Positions 1 to 38,378 of a stretch of DNA of 38,378 nucleotides are shown here, in pieces. The translations under genes were made by a program, and so were the position numbers. The notes under the pieces are model-generated. The model ran no database searches. It had not been told where the DNA came from and saw only the letters and a list, made by a program, of their open reading frames with translations. The DNA is from a virus: the IMG/VR virus record IMGVR_UViG_3300034418_006209, positions 1 to 38,378 of that record; one strand, 5' to 3'. Within the stretch, counting starts at the first letter, position 1; each line of letters begins with the position of its first letter.

Positions 1-385
1 TGTGATGTGCGAGATGAAGTACATCCCCCTAGTAGCACGACAGAAAACCTGCGGGGAGATCTGCAGCAGAGAATACAAACTAGAGCAGGAAAAACTGAAG
101 TATCGGTCGGTCAATCCGAAACCGTGCATCGTCTGCAAAGAAATCTTTCAGGCAGATCGACGAGCAAAAACCTGCAGTGAGGAATGCAGTCGGAAATGGC
201 GGAACAGAAGGATTGGGAGGAAGTATCCACCCAAGAATTGTGTCGTCTGCAAGAAGGAATTTTACGGGAGTCCTCGATCCATCACTTGCAGTGCGGAGTG
301 CTCGTATCAGTCGAAGTTGGAGAGGTCACGACTCGGTTTGTATCTGAAGGATCGACCACCGAAACCCTGCGAAACCTGCGGGGAG
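1..385. repeat. Left copy of a diverged terminal duplication
   Basis: These bases align without gaps to 37994-38378. By eye about 33 positions differ, roughly 91% identity. Positions 55-154 are identical and most differences cluster after 270. Both copies encode the same zinc-ribbon protein in the same frame. Either the phage has two tandem paralogues meeting at the permutation point, or a circular or terminally redundant genome was assembled from two strain variants. Confidence 0.85.
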
Positions 386-6480: not shown

Positions 6481-6786
6481 TTAGGTGTCTGTGAGGCCAA
6501 AAACTGCAAAAACACCAAGGATTTCAATGTACTATGCGGAGAATGCGAAATTCTTGAATTTAGCGAGTTTTGTCGCCTTGGATCGATATTTTATATACCT
6601 AATCATTGGATAATCCCCGAAAATCAAGAATCAATGGACGATTTACAAGAAATGGCAGAAGTCGTGACCAATATCGTCCGTAAACGTGATCACTCCCTGA
6701 AAGTGGTCTTGGATGGAAACAAACTCATCTGCCAGTCTTGGATGAAAACCCATGTTGATGAATCTATTCCAGAATGGTTGAGATAA
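6331..6786 (+). CDS. Hypothetical protein overlapping the iterons
   Basis: The frame encodes 151 residues. The first 50 residues are read through the GTTGGAACA repeats and are low complexity (N, L, Q, E rich), so the true start may lie further in, for example ATG 6634. The middle contains CEAKNC and CGEC, a possible zinc ribbon, and the C-terminal third looks like an ordinary mixed alpha/beta domain. Its stop overlaps the small terminase ATG (TAATG), which supports the 3' part being real. I do not recognise the family. Confidence 0.5.
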   Translation: MNIYNLNNINNLGKKLEQLEQNLGGQTDSGLQRSNFGKIAGTKLEQSWNKLGVCEAKNCKNTKDFNVLCGECEILEFSEFCRLGSIFYIPNHWIIPENQESMDDLQEMAEVVTNIVRKRDHSLKVVLDGNKLICQSWMKTHVDESIPEWLR

Positions 6787-7232
6787 TGACTGAGCCAAAG
6801 AAAAGCAATCGTAAGTATTCCGATGAACAGGTGGAAGCCTTCTGCAATCACATTGCCGATGGCAAGAGTCTTCAGGAAACTGCAGATCTCTATGGGATGA
6901 CGAGGTATGCACTGTACCAGGTGCTAAACAGGAATCATCAGGAACGTTATATGTCTGCTCTCAATGAGAGGGCAATGCGCCATGCAGAACACATTGAGTA
7001 TCTTGCCAAAGAGTGTGAACAGGGACGGATTGATCCTAGAGCTGCAGATGTATCTATCCGTGCCAGACAGTGGATCTGTGCCAAATATCACCCTGAGTTC
7101 CTTGCCGAGCGAATGAAAAAGGATGTGAGTGTGGAACACTCGATGAGGAAGGAACACTTGGACACCATGAAGAAGATTGCGAAGAGAAAAGCGGAGATTG
7201 AATACAAGTCTGAGCAGAAGCCCAAGGATTGA
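6786..7232 (+). CDS. terS: Terminase small subunit
   Basis: A 148-residue DNA-recognition subunit of the packaging motor. The N-terminal 45 residues form a helix-turn-helix of the kind in small terminases (EQVEAFCNHIADGKSLQETA, then a turn, then MTRYALYQVLNR). A helical oligomerisation region follows (residues about 55-105), ending in the typical VSIRARQWICAKYHPEFL segment, then a basic C-terminal tail. ATG 6786 shares its A with the upstream stop (TAATG); an in-frame ATG at 6774 is less likely. The large subunit gene lies 1.9 kb downstream, separated by rusA, a transporter and a DpdA-like gene, an unusual split. Confidence 0.85.
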   Translation: MTEPKKSNRKYSDEQVEAFCNHIADGKSLQETADLYGMTRYALYQVLNRNHQERYMSALNERAMRHAEHIEYLAKECEQGRIDPRAADVSIRARQWICAKYHPEFLAERMKKDVSVEHSMRKEHLDTMKKIAKRKAEIEYKSEQKPKD

Positions 7233-7547: not shown

Positions 7548-7913
7548 ATGCTAAAAATTTTCAAAATTTCCCCACAACCGAAGCCGAGGATGACCAGATC
7601 CGACAGATGGAGAACCAGACCCTCGGTGCTGGCATACCGAGCATTTGCCGATGCAATGCGTTCTCAATCCGATGGCTGGGAACTGCCGGATGCCTTCCAT
7701 GTGAGGTTCATCGTCCCCATGCCGAAGTCCTGGTCCAAACGCAAACGCCTGCAGATGGTTTCAACCCCCCACCGACAGAGACCGGATCTGGACAACTTCA
7801 TCAAGAGTTTCGACTGCCTCCGCGAAGACGACAGCAGCATCTGGAAAATCTCTGCCGAGAAAATCTGGGGAGAGGAAGGCGCAATCATCATTGACGATTT
7901 GAAGGACAACTAA
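7548..7913 (+). CDS. rusA: RusA-like Holliday junction resolvase
   Basis: A 121-residue crossover junction endodeoxyribonuclease of the RusA family, which cuts four-way DNA junctions and in phages helps debranch DNA before packaging. The N-terminus has the family pattern PQPKPRMTRSDRW. The catalytic core RPDLDNFIKSFDCLREDDSSIW-type segment at about residues 79-100 supplies the acidic residues (PDLDN and DDS), followed by a basic and acidic end. ATG 7548 has no good ribosome-binding site; an internal ATG at 7589 would lose the conserved first strand, so I keep the longer form. Confidence 0.85.
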   Translation: MLKIFKISPQPKPRMTRSDRWRTRPSVLAYRAFADAMRSQSDGWELPDAFHVRFIVPMPKSWSKRKRLQMVSTPHRQRPDLDNFIKSFDCLREDDSSIWKISAEKIWGEEGAIIIDDLKDN

Positions 7914-7921
7914 GGAGACCT

Positions 7922-8413
7922 ATGCAGAGAACTGCCATCATCATTTACCTAGCCGCCATCGTAACTGCAAACCTACTGATCCTAGAGTTTGGTCCGAGTG
8001 TTTCGATCATCAACGCCTTTCTGTTGATTGGGCTAGACCTGTCTTTGAGAGACTACCTGCATGACTGCTGGCAGGAGAACCTGAAACGCAACATGGCCCT
8101 GTTGATCTGTGCAGGGTCAGGGTTGACAATCTTGCTGAACCTCGACGCCTTGCAGATCGCTCTAGCCAGTGCCGCAGCCTTTGGGATTTCTGCCCTGCTG
8201 GACTCCTTCGTCTACCACAAATTAAAAGATCACCCGTACCTCGTCCGTTCCAACTCCTCCAACCTGCTGGGATCATTGACCGACTCAATCCTGTTCCCAG
8301 TGCTAGCATTCGGAGGATTCCCCGTTTGGATCATTGCAGGACAGTTTGCAGCAAAACTGCTGGGTGGATTCATCTGGAGTCTGGGAATCAACAAACTCCG
8401 CACAGCAGAATGA
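7922..8413 (+). CDS. VUT-family (YhhQ-like) queuosine-precursor transporter
   Basis: A 163-residue membrane protein of the VUT/YhhQ family, whose bacterial members import 7-deazaguanine precursors such as preQ0. About five to six hydrophobic segments are visible. Family signatures are present: ANLL with FGP near residues 19-29, the INAFLLIGLDLSLRDYLHDCW block (residues about 36-56), AAAFGISALLDSFVYHKLK, RSNSSNLLGSLTDSILFPVLAFGG and the terminal GQFAAKLLGGFIW. A strong AAGGAG ribosome-binding site precedes ATG 7922. The stop overlaps the next ATG (ATGA), so it is coupled to the DpdA-like gene, which would use the imported base. A phage-borne importer is an accessory trait rather than a core phage function. 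Confidence 0.85.
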   Translation: MQRTAIIIYLAAIVTANLLILEFGPSVSIINAFLLIGLDLSLRDYLHDCWQENLKRNMALLICAGSGLTILLNLDALQIALASAAAFGISALLDSFVYHKLKDHPYLVRSNSSNLLGSLTDSILFPVLAFGGFPVWIIAGQFAAKLLGGFIWSLGINKLRTAE

Positions 8414-9156
8414 TTCACTATCACGGGACGAGAATTGCCGCGAGTGATGATCAGGTCACAAGGATTTTGAAGTCCAGACATGCCTGTGTGTCCTATGCGG
8501 ATCTGTCACAGTTGTCAATTGTGCAAGAGGTTTGTCAGTCGTGGATGCTGGACAATGGGGCCTACAGTTTCTGGAACTCTGGCAAGACCACAGACTGGGA
8601 AGACTACTACAAGTTTGTCAGTGATCTGAAGGACCCGTGCTGTGATTTCTGGATCATTCCCGATGTGATTGATGGGACAGAAGATGAGAACAATGAATTG
8701 ATTGAGAACTGTCCGTTGCCTGGAGGGACTCCAGTTTGGCATTTCAACGAATCACTGCAGAAGTTGGAGTGGTTGGCAGAACAATTTGAGAGAGTTTGTA
8801 TTGGGACAACGGCAGGTTTGTCCCCAAATTCAGAGAATTATTGGGTTCGACTGCACCAGGCCCTTGACCGCATCACAGACAAGGACGGGAAGACTGCAAT
8901 CAAACTACATGGATTACGGGCTTTACATCCAGAAATTTTCTGCAAGGTTCCCTTTGCATCCGCAGACTCTACAGCCGTAGGTCGGAACTTGAGTTTGAGC
9001 AGCAACTCCATTTTCAACAACTCCTCAACATTTGACAAATTGAGCATTCATGGCAGAGCAATGGTTTTGATAGATCGGATTGAATCGTTCAATGCTCCGA
9101 GGCATTGGGACCGTAATCACTCCAGTGTCCAGCTTGATTTATTCGGAGCACCCTAA
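8410..9156 (+). CDS. DpdA/TGT-like 7-deazaguanine transglycosylase (probable)
   Basis: A 248-residue protein resembling DpdA, the tRNA-guanine-transglycosylase relative that swaps guanine in DNA for a 7-deazaguanine. Features fitting a TIM-barrel transglycosylase are LDNGAYSFW with a candidate catalytic Asp near residue 48, FWIIPDVIDG with a second Asp near 84, CIGTTAG near 140, and the final HGLRALHP followed by PFASADSTAVGRN, as in the last strands of TGT-fold enzymes. It overlaps the transporter by ATGA and the large terminase by TAATG. No preQ0 synthesis genes (folE, queD, queE, queC) are in the window, so the base must come from host or import. The family call is from pattern memory; a different TIM-barrel enzyme is possible. 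Confidence 0.65.
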   Translation: MIHYHGTRIAASDDQVTRILKSRHACVSYADLSQLSIVQEVCQSWMLDNGAYSFWNSGKTTDWEDYYKFVSDLKDPCCDFWIIPDVIDGTEDENNELIENCPLPGGTPVWHFNESLQKLEWLAEQFERVCIGTTAGLSPNSENYWVRLHQALDRITDKDGKTAIKLHGLRALHPEIFCKVPFASADSTAVGRNLSLSSNSIFNNSSTFDKLSIHGRAMVLIDRIESFNAPRHWDRNHSSVQLDLFGAP

Positions 9157-10532
9157 TGCAACTCAGTGAACTGATCCTGACCTACGAACGGCATCCAGAT
9201 CTCTTTGTCGAGGACCTCTTGGGCGTGACCCCCCAGGACTGGCAGCGGGAGGTGATGTCTGCCGTGGCAAAGGGACAGCGGAGGTGCAGCATCCGCTCTG
9301 GGCATGGAGTCGGAAAATCATCTTGTGCCAGTTGGCTCATGATCTGGTTCCTCCTGACAAGGTATCCGGTAAAGATCGTGGTCACAGCACCAACGGCATC
9401 GCAGTTGTTCGATGCTCTCTTTGCAGAGTGCAAGCGCTGGATCAAGGAACTCCCCACCCCAATCAAATCGTTGCTGGAGATGAAGTCCGACCGGATTGAG
9501 CTGGGTTCTTCTCCGACCGAGGCATTCATCTCAGCCCGAACGAGCAGATCCGAATCCCCAGAATCCCTGGCAGGAGTCCATGCAGATCATGTGTTGCTGG
9601 TGGTCGACGAGGCATCTGGAGTACCGGAGTCGGTCTTTGAGGCAGCCTACGGATCGATGTCTGGGAAGGACGCCACAACAATTTTGCTCGGCAACCCCAC
9701 CCGATCATCAGGGTATTTCTACGAAACGCACACAAGACTGCGGGACAGTTGGTGGACAAAACAGGTCAGTTGCTTGGATTCTCCCCTGGTCTCTCCAGAC
9801 TTCATCCAAGAGATGGAACTGAAGTACGGTGCCCAGAGCAACGCGATGAAAGTGCGAGTATATGGTGAGTTTCCAACTGCCGAGGACGACACCCTGATCT
9901 CTCTGCATGCAGTCGAGCAGGCATCCAAGCGAGTAGTCGAACAACCGGAGGGAACCCCCGTAGTCTGGGGCCTGGATGTCGCACGGTACGGAGATGATGC
10001 GAGTGTCCTCTGCATCCGCCAGGGCAGACACCTCATCGAACTGCACAGCTGGAAGAAACTCTCATTGATGGAACTGTCAGGACGGGTGCTGGATCTCCTG
10101 AACAGTGCAGACGAACCTCCAGAGGAGATCCTGGTGGACAGTATCGGATTGGGGGCAGGAGTGCTGGACCGACTGCGGGAACTCGACATCAGTGCCAGAG
10201 GGGTGAACGTCTCAGAGAGTCCAGCAATGGCAGACCGATATGCCAATCTCCGTGCAGAACTCTGGGACTTGACGAAGCAATGGTTCAGCGAGGAGGTGCA
10301 GATCCCGAATGATGACAGTCTGATTGCAGACCTGACGGCCCCACGATACTCGTTCAATTCATCGGGGAAGATGATCGTGGAATCGAAGGCCGAGACCAAG
10401 AAACGTCTGGGCAGATCGACAGACTTTGCAGATTCGTTGGTGCTGACCTTTGCGAGTACAGCAGCAGGCGCATCTGGGCAATACCGGAGGAAGAAGAGAG
10501 GCCGCAGAAGGAATGTGGGAGGAGTGGTTTGA
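9156..10532 (+). CDS. terL: Terminase large subunit
   Basis: A 458-residue packaging motor with ATPase and nuclease domains. Walker A is SGHGVGKS near residues 48-55, and Walker B with the catalytic Glu is LLVVDEASG near 148-156. The coupling motif region is ILLGNPTR. The RNase H-like nuclease follows, with WGLDVARYGDD near 273, the second acidic site VDSIGLGAGV near 328, and the last Asp in STDFADSLVLTF near 428. A basic tail ends the protein. Start ATG shares its A with the previous stop (TAATG). It cuts concatemers and pumps DNA through the portal encoded at 11662. Confidence 0.95.
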   Translation: MQLSELILTYERHPDLFVEDLLGVTPQDWQREVMSAVAKGQRRCSIRSGHGVGKSSCASWLMIWFLLTRYPVKIVVTAPTASQLFDALFAECKRWIKELPTPIKSLLEMKSDRIELGSSPTEAFISARTSRSESPESLAGVHADHVLLVVDEASGVPESVFEAAYGSMSGKDATTILLGNPTRSSGYFYETHTRLRDSWWTKQVSCLDSPLVSPDFIQEMELKYGAQSNAMKVRVYGEFPTAEDDTLISLHAVEQASKRVVEQPEGTPVVWGLDVARYGDDASVLCIRQGRHLIELHSWKKLSLMELSGRVLDLLNSADEPPEEILVDSIGLGAGVLDRLRELDISARGVNVSESPAMADRYANLRAELWDLTKQWFSEEVQIPNDDSLIADLTAPRYSFNSSGKMIVESKAETKKRLGRSTDFADSLVLTFASTAAGASGQYRRKKRGRRRNVGGVV

Positions 10533-10606: not shown

Positions 10607-11128
10607 ATGGTCCTTTCTGACGAGAAACTGATGGAATTGATCCACTCTGGCTACATCCCTTCAGATGTCCATTTGGGGCCCTGTTCTGTGGATCTGACTC
10701 TTGCCGAGGACTACCTGGTGCCGCACTTGCCGGAAGATCGTCCCTACCTCACAATTACGGAAGACTACCCCCACAAGTTGGCCCCAGTTGAGACCTTTGT
10801 TCTTTACCCACAGAAGTTTGTGTTGGCCTCAACGAATGAACTGATCAAGATTCCAGATCACATGTGCGCAGTCGTGCATGGGAGATCGAGTGTGGGACGT
10901 CTGGGCATCCAGGTACAGAATGCAGGTTTCATTGATGCTGGATTCACCGGACAGATCACCCTCGAGCTGGTGAACCAATCCAATGCTCCAGTGTTGCTGA
11001 AACCCAACATGCGAATCTGCCAACTGGTGATGCACAATCTACATGGACAGTCGAAGAGACCGTACCGAGGGAAGTACCAGGGACAGGTGGGTCCCACTCC
11101 ATCGCGGATCAAGGAGGACGAAGAATAA
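10607..11128 (+). CDS. dcd: dCTP deaminase / dUTPase-superfamily enzyme
   Basis: A 173-residue trimeric nucleotide enzyme of the Dcd/dUTPase superfamily, which deaminates dCTP to dUTP for thymidylate synthesis. The N-terminal GYIPSDVHLGPCSVDLTLAE block and the central signature HGRSSVGRLGIQ...GFIDAGFTGQITLELVN (residues about 90-122) are characteristic. The Glu in TLELVN matches the deaminase catalytic residue, favouring Dcd over a pure dUTPase. A C-terminal QGQVGPTPSR segment fits the substrate-closing tail. AGGAG lies before the ATG. It probably raises the precursor pool during phage replication. Confidence 0.88.
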   Translation: MVLSDEKLMELIHSGYIPSDVHLGPCSVDLTLAEDYLVPHLPEDRPYLTITEDYPHKLAPVETFVLYPQKFVLASTNELIKIPDHMCAVVHGRSSVGRLGIQVQNAGFIDAGFTGQITLELVNQSNAPVLLKPNMRICQLVMHNLHGQSKRPYRGKYQGQVGPTPSRIKEDEE

Positions 11129-17335: not shown

Positions 17336-17662
17336 ATGGCACTTCTAACGAATGCCTCCACCTCGTATGACATTAAGGCGTCGGGAACCGAGGAGGATGT
17401 AATTGATATTAAAGAGATTGTTTATAACATCTCTCCCACTGAGACCCCATTCGTCAACAGTGTAGGGACCCGCAACGTCTCAAACACCGTCTTTGAGTGG
17501 ATCACAGAAGAGTTGTCCGCAACCTCAACCACAACCGACCTGGAAGGGGATGCCATCAGTGCAGCAGCAGCCTCACTGACCACCCGAAACAGCAACGTCT
17601 GCCAAATCATGTCGAGGGCAGTAGCTGTGACAGGGACTCAGTCTGCGATCAAACTCTACGGT
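17336..17662 (+). CDS. Major capsid protein, exon 1 of 3 (SU10/DUF5309 type)
   Basis: First 109 codons of the major capsid gene. The family pattern is clear: IDIKEIVYNISPTETPFVNSVG, then FEWITEELS, DLEGDA and CQIMSRAVAVTGTQ. The coding exon ends at GGT (Gly), after which the reading frame meets TAA at 17678, 16 bases inside the intron. After removal of both introns the gene is 960 bases and encodes 319 residues, the normal size for this HK97-fold capsid family. The junction Gly-Lys-Thr-Ser lines up residue for residue with intron-less relatives, which have GRKSELAYQLAKRGKEL where this protein has GKTSQMAHQMARRTKEL. Confidence 0.9.
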
Positions 17663-17912
17663 GAACGACTTGCCGCTTAACTAGGGAACTAGTTATGAAA
17701 AACTCCGTGAATTGCTGGGAAGTCCAGACCGGACAATCAGCAGCCAAGCCCAGAAATGGGAAGGTTCAACGACTAGCCGAAAGGCGTACACTCAAGCGAG
17801 TGGAAGTGCGGAGCACCCTGATCGGGTGAAGATATAGTCTGAACTGCCTGGGAACAGGTAGCAGTCCCGAATGGGACGGGTCAGGGAGTAGCGAACCTGA
17901 TTGAACATATTG
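17663..17912 (+). ncRNA. Group I intron 1 in the capsid gene (IA-like, 250 nt)
   Basis: Self-splicing intron without an open reading frame. P1 pairs exon CGGU (17659-17662) with GCCG (17672-17675), giving the U-G pair at the 5' splice site. P10 pairs CUU (17669-17671) with exon AAG (17913-17915). P2 is UAACUAG/CUAGUUA with a GGAA loop. P3 is CUCCG (17703)/CGGAG (17809), P4 UGCUG (17713)/CAGCA (17738), P6 CCCA-GAAA-UGGG, and P7 GACUA (17771)/UAGUC (17835), within typical R and S elements. P8 is CACCC/GGGUG. Stems P7.1 and P7.2 between P7 and P3 suggest subgroup IA. The terminal base is G (17912). Confidence 0.93.
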
Positions 17913-18313
17913 AAGACATCGCAGATGGCCCATCAGATGGCAAGACGCACCAAGGAACTCAAGCGCAGTGTCGAAGCGGCACTCTTGAGCAACCAGGCCC
18001 GCAACAATGGTGCTGCGGCAACAGCCCGAACGAGTGCAATGATTGGTGCCTGGTTGGACACCAACACCGACTTTGATGGTGGTGGTGCAGATCCGGTGAC
18101 TCCAGGCTCAACAGCCCGAACGGACTCTGGAGTTCAGCGAGCATTGACTGCCTCAATCATCAACACGGTGATGCAATCGTGCTACACGGAGGGTGGTGAA
18201 CCAGATCGCTTGATGGTCGGACCTTACAACAAGACCGTCGTTTCAACATTGACCGGACGATCTATTGCCCGTGAGATGATTGATTCCAACACTGCTGGTA
18301 GCAACGTAACCGT
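17913..18313 (+). CDS. Major capsid protein, exon 2 of 3
   Basis: Central 401 bases of the capsid gene, beginning AAG ACA TCG (Lys-Thr-Ser) and ending with the first two bases of a Val codon (GT at 18312-18313) that exon 3 completes. It encodes the conserved ARRTKELKRSVEAALLSNQ helix, the GAAATARTSAMIGAWL block, an insertion domain rich in Gly and Asp, and the RLMVGPYNKTVVSTLTGR strand region. Read without splicing, the frame runs to TAA at 18327, 14 bases inside intron 2. Confidence 0.9.
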
Positions 18314-18563
18314 AAAATGTGCGGCTTAATCAGGTAACTGGTTAATGAAAAACCCTGTGAATTGCTGGGAACTCCAGAACGGACAATCAGCAGCCAAGCC
18401 CGAAAGGGAAGGTTCAACGACTATCTCGAAAGAGAGTAGGATCAAGCGATCCGAAGTGCAGGGCATCCTACGGGATGATGATATAGTCTTCTCTGCCTGG
18501 GAACAGGTAGCAGTCACCAACGAGTGACGGGTTAGTTGTAGCGTAACTAACTGAAAATAAAGG
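18314..18563 (+). ncRNA. Group I intron 2 in the capsid gene (IA-like, 250 nt)
   Basis: A close relative of intron 1 with exactly the same length. P1 pairs exon CCGU (18310-18313) with GCGG (18321-18324), a compensated version of intron 1. P10 pairs AAAU (18315-18318) with exon AUUU (18564-18567). P2 is UAAUCAG/CUGGUUA with a GUAA loop. P3 is CCCUG (18353)/CAGGG (18459), again compensated. P7 is GACUA (18419)/UAGUC (18484). P8 is CAUCC/GGAUG, and the P7.1 and P7.2 stems differ in sequence but keep pairing. The P4 core and the P9 hairpin (CCUG-GGAA-CAGG) are identical in both. The terminal base is G (18563). No endonuclease gene is present. Confidence 0.93.
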
Positions 18564-18795
18564 ATTTGCTACAGATTTTGGGGACCTTCAGGTCATGCCA
18601 AATCGATTCCAGCGAGAACGTGACGCTTTCTTGATCTCGCCCGATTTTGCGAAGGTTTCCTATTTGAGAAATTTCCAGGTAAGTACCCTTGGAAAGACCA
18701 GTGATGCTGAGACCAAGTACCTGGTCGTGGAGATGGGTCTGGAGATGACTCAGGAAGCGGCTCATGGTGGGATCTTTGATCTGGAAACCTCCTAA
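18564..18795 (+). CDS. Major capsid protein, exon 3 of 3
   Basis: The first base completes the split Val codon, giving TV-FATDFGDLQVMPNRF across the junction. Intron-less relatives have a very similar SDFGTLKVVPNRF, which confirms frame and splice position. The rest encodes the conserved C-terminus: RERDAFLISP, a KVSYLRNFQ strand, GKTSDAETKYLVVEMGLEM and the terminal GIFDLETS. An ATG at 18595 inside this exon would start only the last 66 residues and is not a real start. Confidence 0.9.
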
Positions 18796-37962: not shown

Positions 37963-38378
37963 GCGAGAAGCGATGGAACGCTCCCAGAATCTGTGTGATG
38001 TGCGGAATGAAGTACATCCCTTTAGTAGCACGACAAAAAACCTGCGGAGAGATCTGCAGCAGAGAATACAAACTAGAGCAGGAAAAACTGAAGTATCGGT
38101 CGGTCAATCCGAAACCGTGCATCGTCTGCAAAGAAATATTCCAGGCAGATCGACGAGCAAAAACCTGCAGTGAGGAATGCAGTCGCAAATGGCGGAACAG
38201 AAGGATTGGGAGAAAGTATCCACCCAAGAATTGTGTCGTCTGCAAGAAGGAATTTTACGGCAGTCCTCGCGCAATCACCTGCAGTGCTGAGTGCAGTTAT
38301 CAGTCGAAGTTAGAGAGAGCAAGGTTGGGGTTGTATCTAAAAGATCGACCTCCGAAACCTTGCGAAACCTGCGGAACG
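37959..38378 (+). CDS. Tandem zinc-ribbon protein (3' truncated), right copy
   Basis: Starts at TTG 37959 overlapping the previous stop, with AGGAGAAGAAGG upstream. It begins SEKRWNAPRICVMCGMKY and runs through three full ribbons into the fourth before the window ends. From 37994 it is about 91% identical in DNA to the left-end gene, with most changes silent in the first half and more replacements in the third ribbon. It supplies the missing N-terminus of the left copy and shows the true gene start. Confidence 0.75.
   Translation, partial: MSEKRWNAPRICVMCGMKYIPLVARQKTCGEICSREYKLEQEKLKYRSVNPKPCIVCKEIFQADRRAKTCSEECSRKWRNRRIGRKYPPKNCVVCKKEFYGSPRAITCSAECSYQSKLERARLGLYLKDRPPKPCETCGT
37994..38378. 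repeat. Right copy of the diverged terminal duplication
   Basis: Collinear with 1-385, no gaps, about 33 mismatches by eye. It starts at exactly the base where the window begins, which suggests that the window was cut at a circularisation or overlap point rather than at a random site. Confidence 0.85.

Follow-up and report, generated by a model that had tools for sequence, protein, structure and literature searches.

Where would a phage that encodes a putative DNA transglycosylase of the DpdA type, and none of the enzymes that synthesize a 7-deazaguanine, obtain the base to insert? The question is raised by the virus record IMGVR_UViG_3300034418_006209 (38,378 bases, GC 49%), which was analysed over its whole length and is referred to as the window. 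It carries genes for a tyrosine integrase and a CI-like repressor and is hence read as a temperate tailed phage. Portal and terminase are nearest to those of uncultured Manatee Spring phages and of Sinorhizobium phage phiM5, whereby the identity of terminase and portal to the nearest cultured relatives is only 38-55%. The host is probably a proteobacterium. A search for tRNA genes across the window found none. The genes at the locus are arranged as follows:

6774-7232, plus strand: small terminase subunit (Pfam Sf6_terminase, 40.8 bits; phrog_1482)
7548-7913, plus strand: RusA-like Holliday junction resolvase in the same gene run, upstream of the pair (Pfam RusA, 54 bits)
7922-8413, plus strand: YhhQ-type (Vut_1) transporter of the COG1738/QPTR family, 163 aa (Vut_1, 49.2 bits; phrog_4899, 4e-36)
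8410-9156, plus strand: predicted DpdA-like guanine/7-deazaguanine DNA transglycosylase, 248 aa (phrog_887, 2e-55)
9156-10532, plus strand: large terminase subunit, its start overlapping the stop of the DpdA-like gene (phrog_2 terminase large subunit, 4e-44)

The first-pass annotation described a transporter gene that overlaps a TGT/DpdA-like gene by ATGA, both lying between the two terminase genes. The overlap is borne out by the coordinates of the two reading frames (7922-8413 and 8410-9156). The placement is right as well, except that the RusA gene (7548-7913) also intervenes. The stop codon of the DpdA-like gene in turn overlaps the ATG of the large terminase gene as TAATG, and a strong Shine-Dalgarno sequence precedes the transporter start (AAGGAGACCT ATG). 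The DpdA-like frame is counted here from the ATG at 8410, giving 248 aa, while the program-made list of reading frames starts it earlier, at a TTG at 8326. Both genes of the pair are under purifying selection, with dN/dS values of 0.06-0.07 and 0.11-0.16 against three near relatives.

Some further features of the window were recorded. A dCTP deaminase gene follows directly after the large terminase gene (10607-11128; TIGR02274, 146 bits). Two related group I introns on the plus strand (17653-17861 and 18304-18510; RF00028, 91.9 and 95.6 bits) interrupt the SU10-type major capsid protein gene, whose exons lie near 17336-17680, 17901-18329 and 18595-18795; a homing endonuclease is not evident in these introns. 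The ends of the window (1-381 and 37994-38374) are 91.9% identical over 381 bases without gaps. This similarity falls inside a Cys-rich HNH-like reading frame and is due either to a repeat that has diverged or to a circular overlap between strain variants.

The importer call of the first-pass annotation (VUT/YhhQ type) holds. The transporter passes the Pfam Vut_1 cut-off (49.2 bits against 27.2) and matches the putative preQ0 transporter of phage CAjan at 1.6e-10. Profile comparison with E. coli YhhQ, a member of the same family that is needed for preQ0 salvage (PMC5372724), gives 6e-6 over the C-terminal half, while BLASTP against E. coli YhhQ gives no significant match. For TIGR00697, the NCBIfam equivalog of queuosine precursor transporters, the score is 32.4 bits and does not reach the cut-off of 50.95. 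By these profile scores the protein is assigned to the right family (COG1738/QPTR) but not to the curated equivalog TIGR00697. The AlphaFold model is confident (pLDDT 93.9) and shows five helical segments. Its top 12 structural rows are all substrate-binding (S/CbiM-type) components of ECF transporters, among them RibU, BioY, ThiT, PanT and CbiM, at Z 8.8-10.8, which is below the value of about 13 under which helical bundles call for caution. The best row is 5kbw_A (Z 10.8, rmsd 3.5, 148 residues aligned) and the row after the top 12 has Z 7.4. Model and rows together argue for a full-length, short family member and against a gene fragment.

The DpdA-like identity of the protein encoded at 8410 is firmly predicted by homology. 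BLASTP detects the DpdA proteins of Pantoea phage MED16 (1e-31), Salmonella phage 7-11 (1e-30) and CAjan (3e-14), and the profile comparison with CAjan DpdA gives 6.5e-14 (98%). The family phrog_887, which the window enzyme matches at 2e-55, is annotated as queuine tRNA-ribosyltransferase. Among these relatives function has been tested: virion DNA of 7-11 and MED16 contains dADG (PMC6884629, PMC8306585), and deletion of dpdA in CAjan abolishes dPreQ0 (PMC6884629). Three candidate active-site motifs were located in an alignment of 125 sequences:

8551-8562, plus strand: D48-N-G-A, candidate general-base Asp at the position of the TGT 'DSGG' motif (D48, N49, G50 and A51 invariant in 125/125 sequences)
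8656-8664, plus strand: I83-P-D85, candidate base-recognition Asp (P84 and D85 invariant in 125/125 sequences)
8962-8973, plus strand: A185-D186-S-T, candidate nucleophile Asp (D186 in 124/124 ungapped sequences)

Two histidines, H111 and H167, are all but invariant in the 125 sequences, as are the DNGA, PD and ADST motifs. In the alignment with CAjan DpdA, D48 falls on LDSGAFS and D186 on CDSS. E. coli TGT has its DSGGFQ motif at 89 and FDC at 263, and by motif order only D48 and D186 may be the counterparts of these. When the DpdA alignment was compared as a profile with E. coli TGT alone, no significant match resulted, and no relative was detected by sequence among solved structures, so the link to TGT runs through the phage DpdA proteins. 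The enzyme matches neither Pfam PF01702 (TGT) nor, at the curated cut-off, PF23859 (DpdA), while the partner enzymes at the viral loci L032 and L053 do match PF23859.

A TGT relative next to a transporter of this family could instead serve to raise the queuosine content of host tRNA, with the importer bringing in preQ1 or preQ0 and the transglycosylase modifying tRNA, which would aid translation of phage genes. COG1738 members do normally serve tRNA queuosine salvage (PMC5372724). The CxCxxC zinc motif present in E. coli TGT is absent from the 248 aa, however, and this together with the missing Pfam TGT match argues against a tRNA enzyme. Moreover, the protein is far shorter than E. coli TGT, its profile match to that enzyme is not significant, and in its tested relatives it is the virion DNA that contains dADG (PMC6884629, PMC8306585). 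We therefore regard a tRNA target as unlikely.

The structure model of the enzyme is a TIM barrel of medium confidence (pLDDT 72). The alignments for the structure predictions were built from the window and IMG/VR sequences. Cap10, a TGT-like CBASS enzyme, gives the best structural row (Z 11.6, rmsd 4.6, 217 residues aligned), tied with TrpA (Z 11.5, rmsd 3.5, 196 aligned). Archaeal TGT 1j2b (Z 11.2, rmsd 5.3, 222 aligned) lies within the tie with other TIM barrels, and human TGT (Z 10.8, rmsd 4.6, 220 aligned), likewise tied with TrpA, and mouse TGT are also among the best. If the Cap10 row were taken at face value, the transglycosylase might target a protein or nucleotide of host defence, with DNA as a bystander. 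This is very improbable given the tie with archaeal TGT and TrpA, sequence relatives that modify DNA, and a window with no QueC-like partner, whereas the conjugation is assigned to QueC-family proteins (PMC13279940).

The window was searched for genes that would make the base. QueC, QueD, a radical SAM protein of the QueE type, FolE and QueF gave no match in the 38.4 kb record, with positive controls; the profiles without match in the window include PF01227, PF01242, PF04055 and PF06508. Thus the first-pass annotation was correct in finding no preQ0 biosynthesis gene. Its further remark that synthesis genes are usual in the phage systems known is contradicted by the 2019 census, in which DpdA-only phages form the largest group with 76 of 182 viruses (PMC6884629). 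Phages that carry the pair were searched as well. QueC was found in none of 15 named phage records that have the pair but lack a synthesis cluster, and QueD in none of the first 11 of these, with CAjan as positive control in both searches. Mycobacterium phage GreaseLightnin is particularly instructive. It encodes an importer and a TGT-like protein of phrog_15826, and QueC was not found. The host of GreaseLightnin and related phages is M. smegmatis, and the genus Mycobacterium has no preQ0 genes (PMC6884629). Import is hence the obvious source of the base.

We then asked how regularly the two genes occur together. Scans of IMG/VR returned at least 577 transporter relatives and at least 555 enzyme relatives, of which 80 each were kept. 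A TGT-like neighbour is found at 76 of the best 80 transporter loci, which include near-identical contigs and are thus not a sample of independent events. The neighbours comprise 60 enzymes of the window's DpdA type, 9 of phrog_15826, 4 ParB-TGT fusions, 2 of PF23859/phrog_1279 and 1 accompanied by QueC; the other four loci are copies of one phage. Seen from the enzyme, the transporter lies within 4 kb in 52 of the 80 DpdA-anchored loci. It is not seen within 4 kb in the remaining 28, so the importer is dispensable for some of these phages. Without duplicates there are 101 distinct pairs; the enzyme gene comes first in 82 and the transporter gene in 19, and gene order changed at least five times on the enzyme tree. 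The genes overlap or abut in most pairs, and the two trees are correlated (r 0.65, 0 of 999 permutations). A chance pairing is rejected on the grounds of purifying selection on both genes and of the wide recurrence of the pair. The functional coupling of importer and DpdA-like enzyme proposed in the first-pass annotation is thus supported by linkage, by the occurrence of both orders and by the correlated trees.

Bacterial genome contigs served as control. Searched with the transporter alignment, they gave 68 relatives, of which 62 have no TGT-like neighbour and which are mostly solitary chromosomal genes; a search with the single transporter sequence gave no match. The linkage is hence a feature of phages. 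Exceptions exist among viruses. In the viral contig group L045 the transporter has no TGT neighbour. Phage mEp021 (L260, 1992-3259) is a real exception to the linkage: its diverged transporter gene overlaps one for a putative DNA cytosine methyltransferase, an adenine methyltransferase gene lies immediately upstream, and a TGT-like gene was not found. This phage, the solitary bacterial relatives and the varied substrates of COG1738 members (PMC11130926) would fit a transporter that serves some other salvage, of another purine or a vitamin, and merely hitch-hikes with dpdA in an accessory cassette. Such hitch-hiking would however hardly yield linkage to several TGT-like sub-families in both orders and with correlated trees, and we give it little credence.

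The pair is adjacent or separated by one or two small genes in PEAT2, AB3P2, Flyfo Tbat1_6, Opt-719, ECO111 5-P, RCIP0319, Lg3, LHE71, Phc, Pam5 and RHph_X2_30, whereby Tbat1_6 (from bat faeces) and ECO111 5-P (an unverified record) are not securely isolates. Other TGT-like sub-families take the place of the partner in phiLM21, GreaseLightnin, Aoka and ReqiPine5. RHEph06 carries transporter, DpdA and QueC at separate places in one genome.

The exchanged partners were inspected as well. Proteins of phrog_15826, annotated as of unknown function, show ADNG and PDV motifs and a weak match from the window enzyme, and adjoin the transporter (loci L033, L042, L096, L097, L104, L259, L263 and L264); they are likely a further DpdA/TGT-like sub-family. 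At L058 (3-1337), L059 (2403-3974), L060 and L066 a protein with an N-terminus that we read as ParB-like has a TGT domain at its C-terminus (Pfam TGT 4e-5, below the cut-off), and its gene overlaps the transporter gene. At L018 (3146-8061) and L081 (2540-4683) the transporter and a DpdA-like gene lie inside QueE/QueC/FolE or QueC clusters. At L010 (5036-5866) a DpdA relative is split into several frames, by error or decay.

Taken together, our data suggest that the pair is probably a salvage-and-insert module, consisting of an importer of free 7-deazaguanine and a transglycosylase that installs the base in phage DNA. The proposal builds on homology, on predicted active-site motifs that are intact, on purifying selection, on partner exchange, and on linkage that recurs in unrelated phages where synthesis genes are absent. 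The membrane protein would import a free 7-deazaguanine that is present in the environment or released by RNA turnover, preQ0 or preQ1 being the likeliest. Once phage DNA has been replicated, the transglycosylase would cleave the glycosidic bond at selected guanines via an aspartate-linked intermediate and put the imported base in their place. Phage DNA could thereby be modified without any synthesis enzyme, to an extent set by the available base. Substrate and direction of transport, and DNA rather than RNA as the target, are what we infer for this module. The overlap of the enzyme gene with the terminase gene suggests late timing. Published amounts fit a dependence on supply. The dpdA gene of phage 9g alone in E. 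coli led to only 0.3% of G as dPreQ0 (PMC6884629), which is consistent with precursor limitation. In the phages CAjan and Rosebush, which synthesize the base themselves, about 30% of G is modified, in CAjan about 32% (PMC6884629). A counter-example is Orion, a DpdA-only Mycobacterium phage with no modification (PMC6884629). We found no biochemistry or mass spectrometry for any phage that carries only the pair.

What the modification is good for is a separate matter. Protection against host restriction, as put forward in the first-pass annotation, is not supported by the nearest tested relatives. Their dADG amounts to traces, 0.02% of G or 50 per million nucleotides in 7-11 (PMC6884629) and 0.13% of G or 354 per million nucleotides in MED16 (PMC8306585, PMC6884629). 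From these published densities we calculated ~9 (7-11) and ~33 (MED16) modified bases per genome. MED16 DNA is cut by EcoRI, EcoRV, HaeIII and others (PMC8306585), including enzymes whose sites hold the GA/GGC motifs modified in CAjan (PMC8306585, PMC6884629); its resistance to MboI and Bsu15I is ascribed to m6dA (PMC8306585). Hence the module might instead place a few site-specific marks that serve packaging or replication or help to evade one specific nuclease. The position of the DpdA-like gene in the terminase run, with its stop overlapping the start of the large terminase gene, would agree with this, but the terminase-adjacent position is not kept in the relatives PEAT2, AB3P2 and Pam5. 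Moreover, low density in 7-11 and MED16 may only mean precursor shortage without an importer. No annotated transporter was found within 4 kb of dpdA in either phage, and a pair-bearing phage may therefore differ in density. We consider sparse marking as the benefit of the salvage-and-insert module rather doubtful.

The components of the module are already known, and several systems come close to it. Like the window, 7-11 and MED16 have a related DpdA and no reported preQ0 synthesis genes (PMC6884629, PMC8306585), but they lack the annotated transporter nearby and contain only trace dADG. Escherichia phage CAjan and Enterobacter phage EC151 (PMC8310023) hold the same transporter and DpdA families in one cluster; in contrast to the window, this cluster includes the whole preQ0 pathway (folE, queD, queE, queC) and a longer DpdA of 306 aa. 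Pectobacterium phage PEAT2, Acinetobacter phage AB3P2, Pseudanabaena phage Pam5 and Sinorhizobium phage phiLM21 have an adjacent or near-adjacent pair and no QueC, although on other backbones and in other gene orders, and with a phrog_1279-type DpdA in phiLM21. The pair genes in these four are annotated singly, and we found no description of a module. About 9% of the bacterial dpd islands detected by GATOR-GC carry YhhQ, for which the authors propose preQ0 salvage (PMC11888242), but these islands comprise dpdAB and other genes and are not a two-gene phage unit. Among archaeal viruses HRTV-29 has DpdA only and HCTV-1 and HCTV-16 have synthesis genes and YhhQ, but not both DpdA and YhhQ without synthesis (PMC8651126). 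YhhQ homologues of phages were reported to show no correlation with any phage group (PMC6884629). In the literature covered we found no description of a synthesis-free pair of importer and DpdA as a recurrent module, an earlier description being possible.

The recurrence of the pair in unrelated viruses that are unable to make the base suggests a widespread DNA modification of the type 'borrow, don't build'. This bears on the question left in 2019, namely where DpdA-only phages obtain their base and why some of them carry YhhQ, and it names phrog_15826 and the ParB-TGT fusion as new candidate DpdA sub-families. It is conceivable, though we would not yet wager on it, that many phages of proteobacteria, actinobacteria and cyanobacteria practise such synthesis-free, environment-dependent DNA marking, keeping an importer beside any TGT-like enzyme (including phrog_15826 and ParB-TGT fusions) and marking their DNA only if free 7-deazaguanine can be obtained, also in hosts such as Mycobacterium that are unable to make it. 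The Mycobacterium phages would provide a clean natural test, as their host has no preQ0 pathway. The linkage as such points to salvage as a dedicated strategy.
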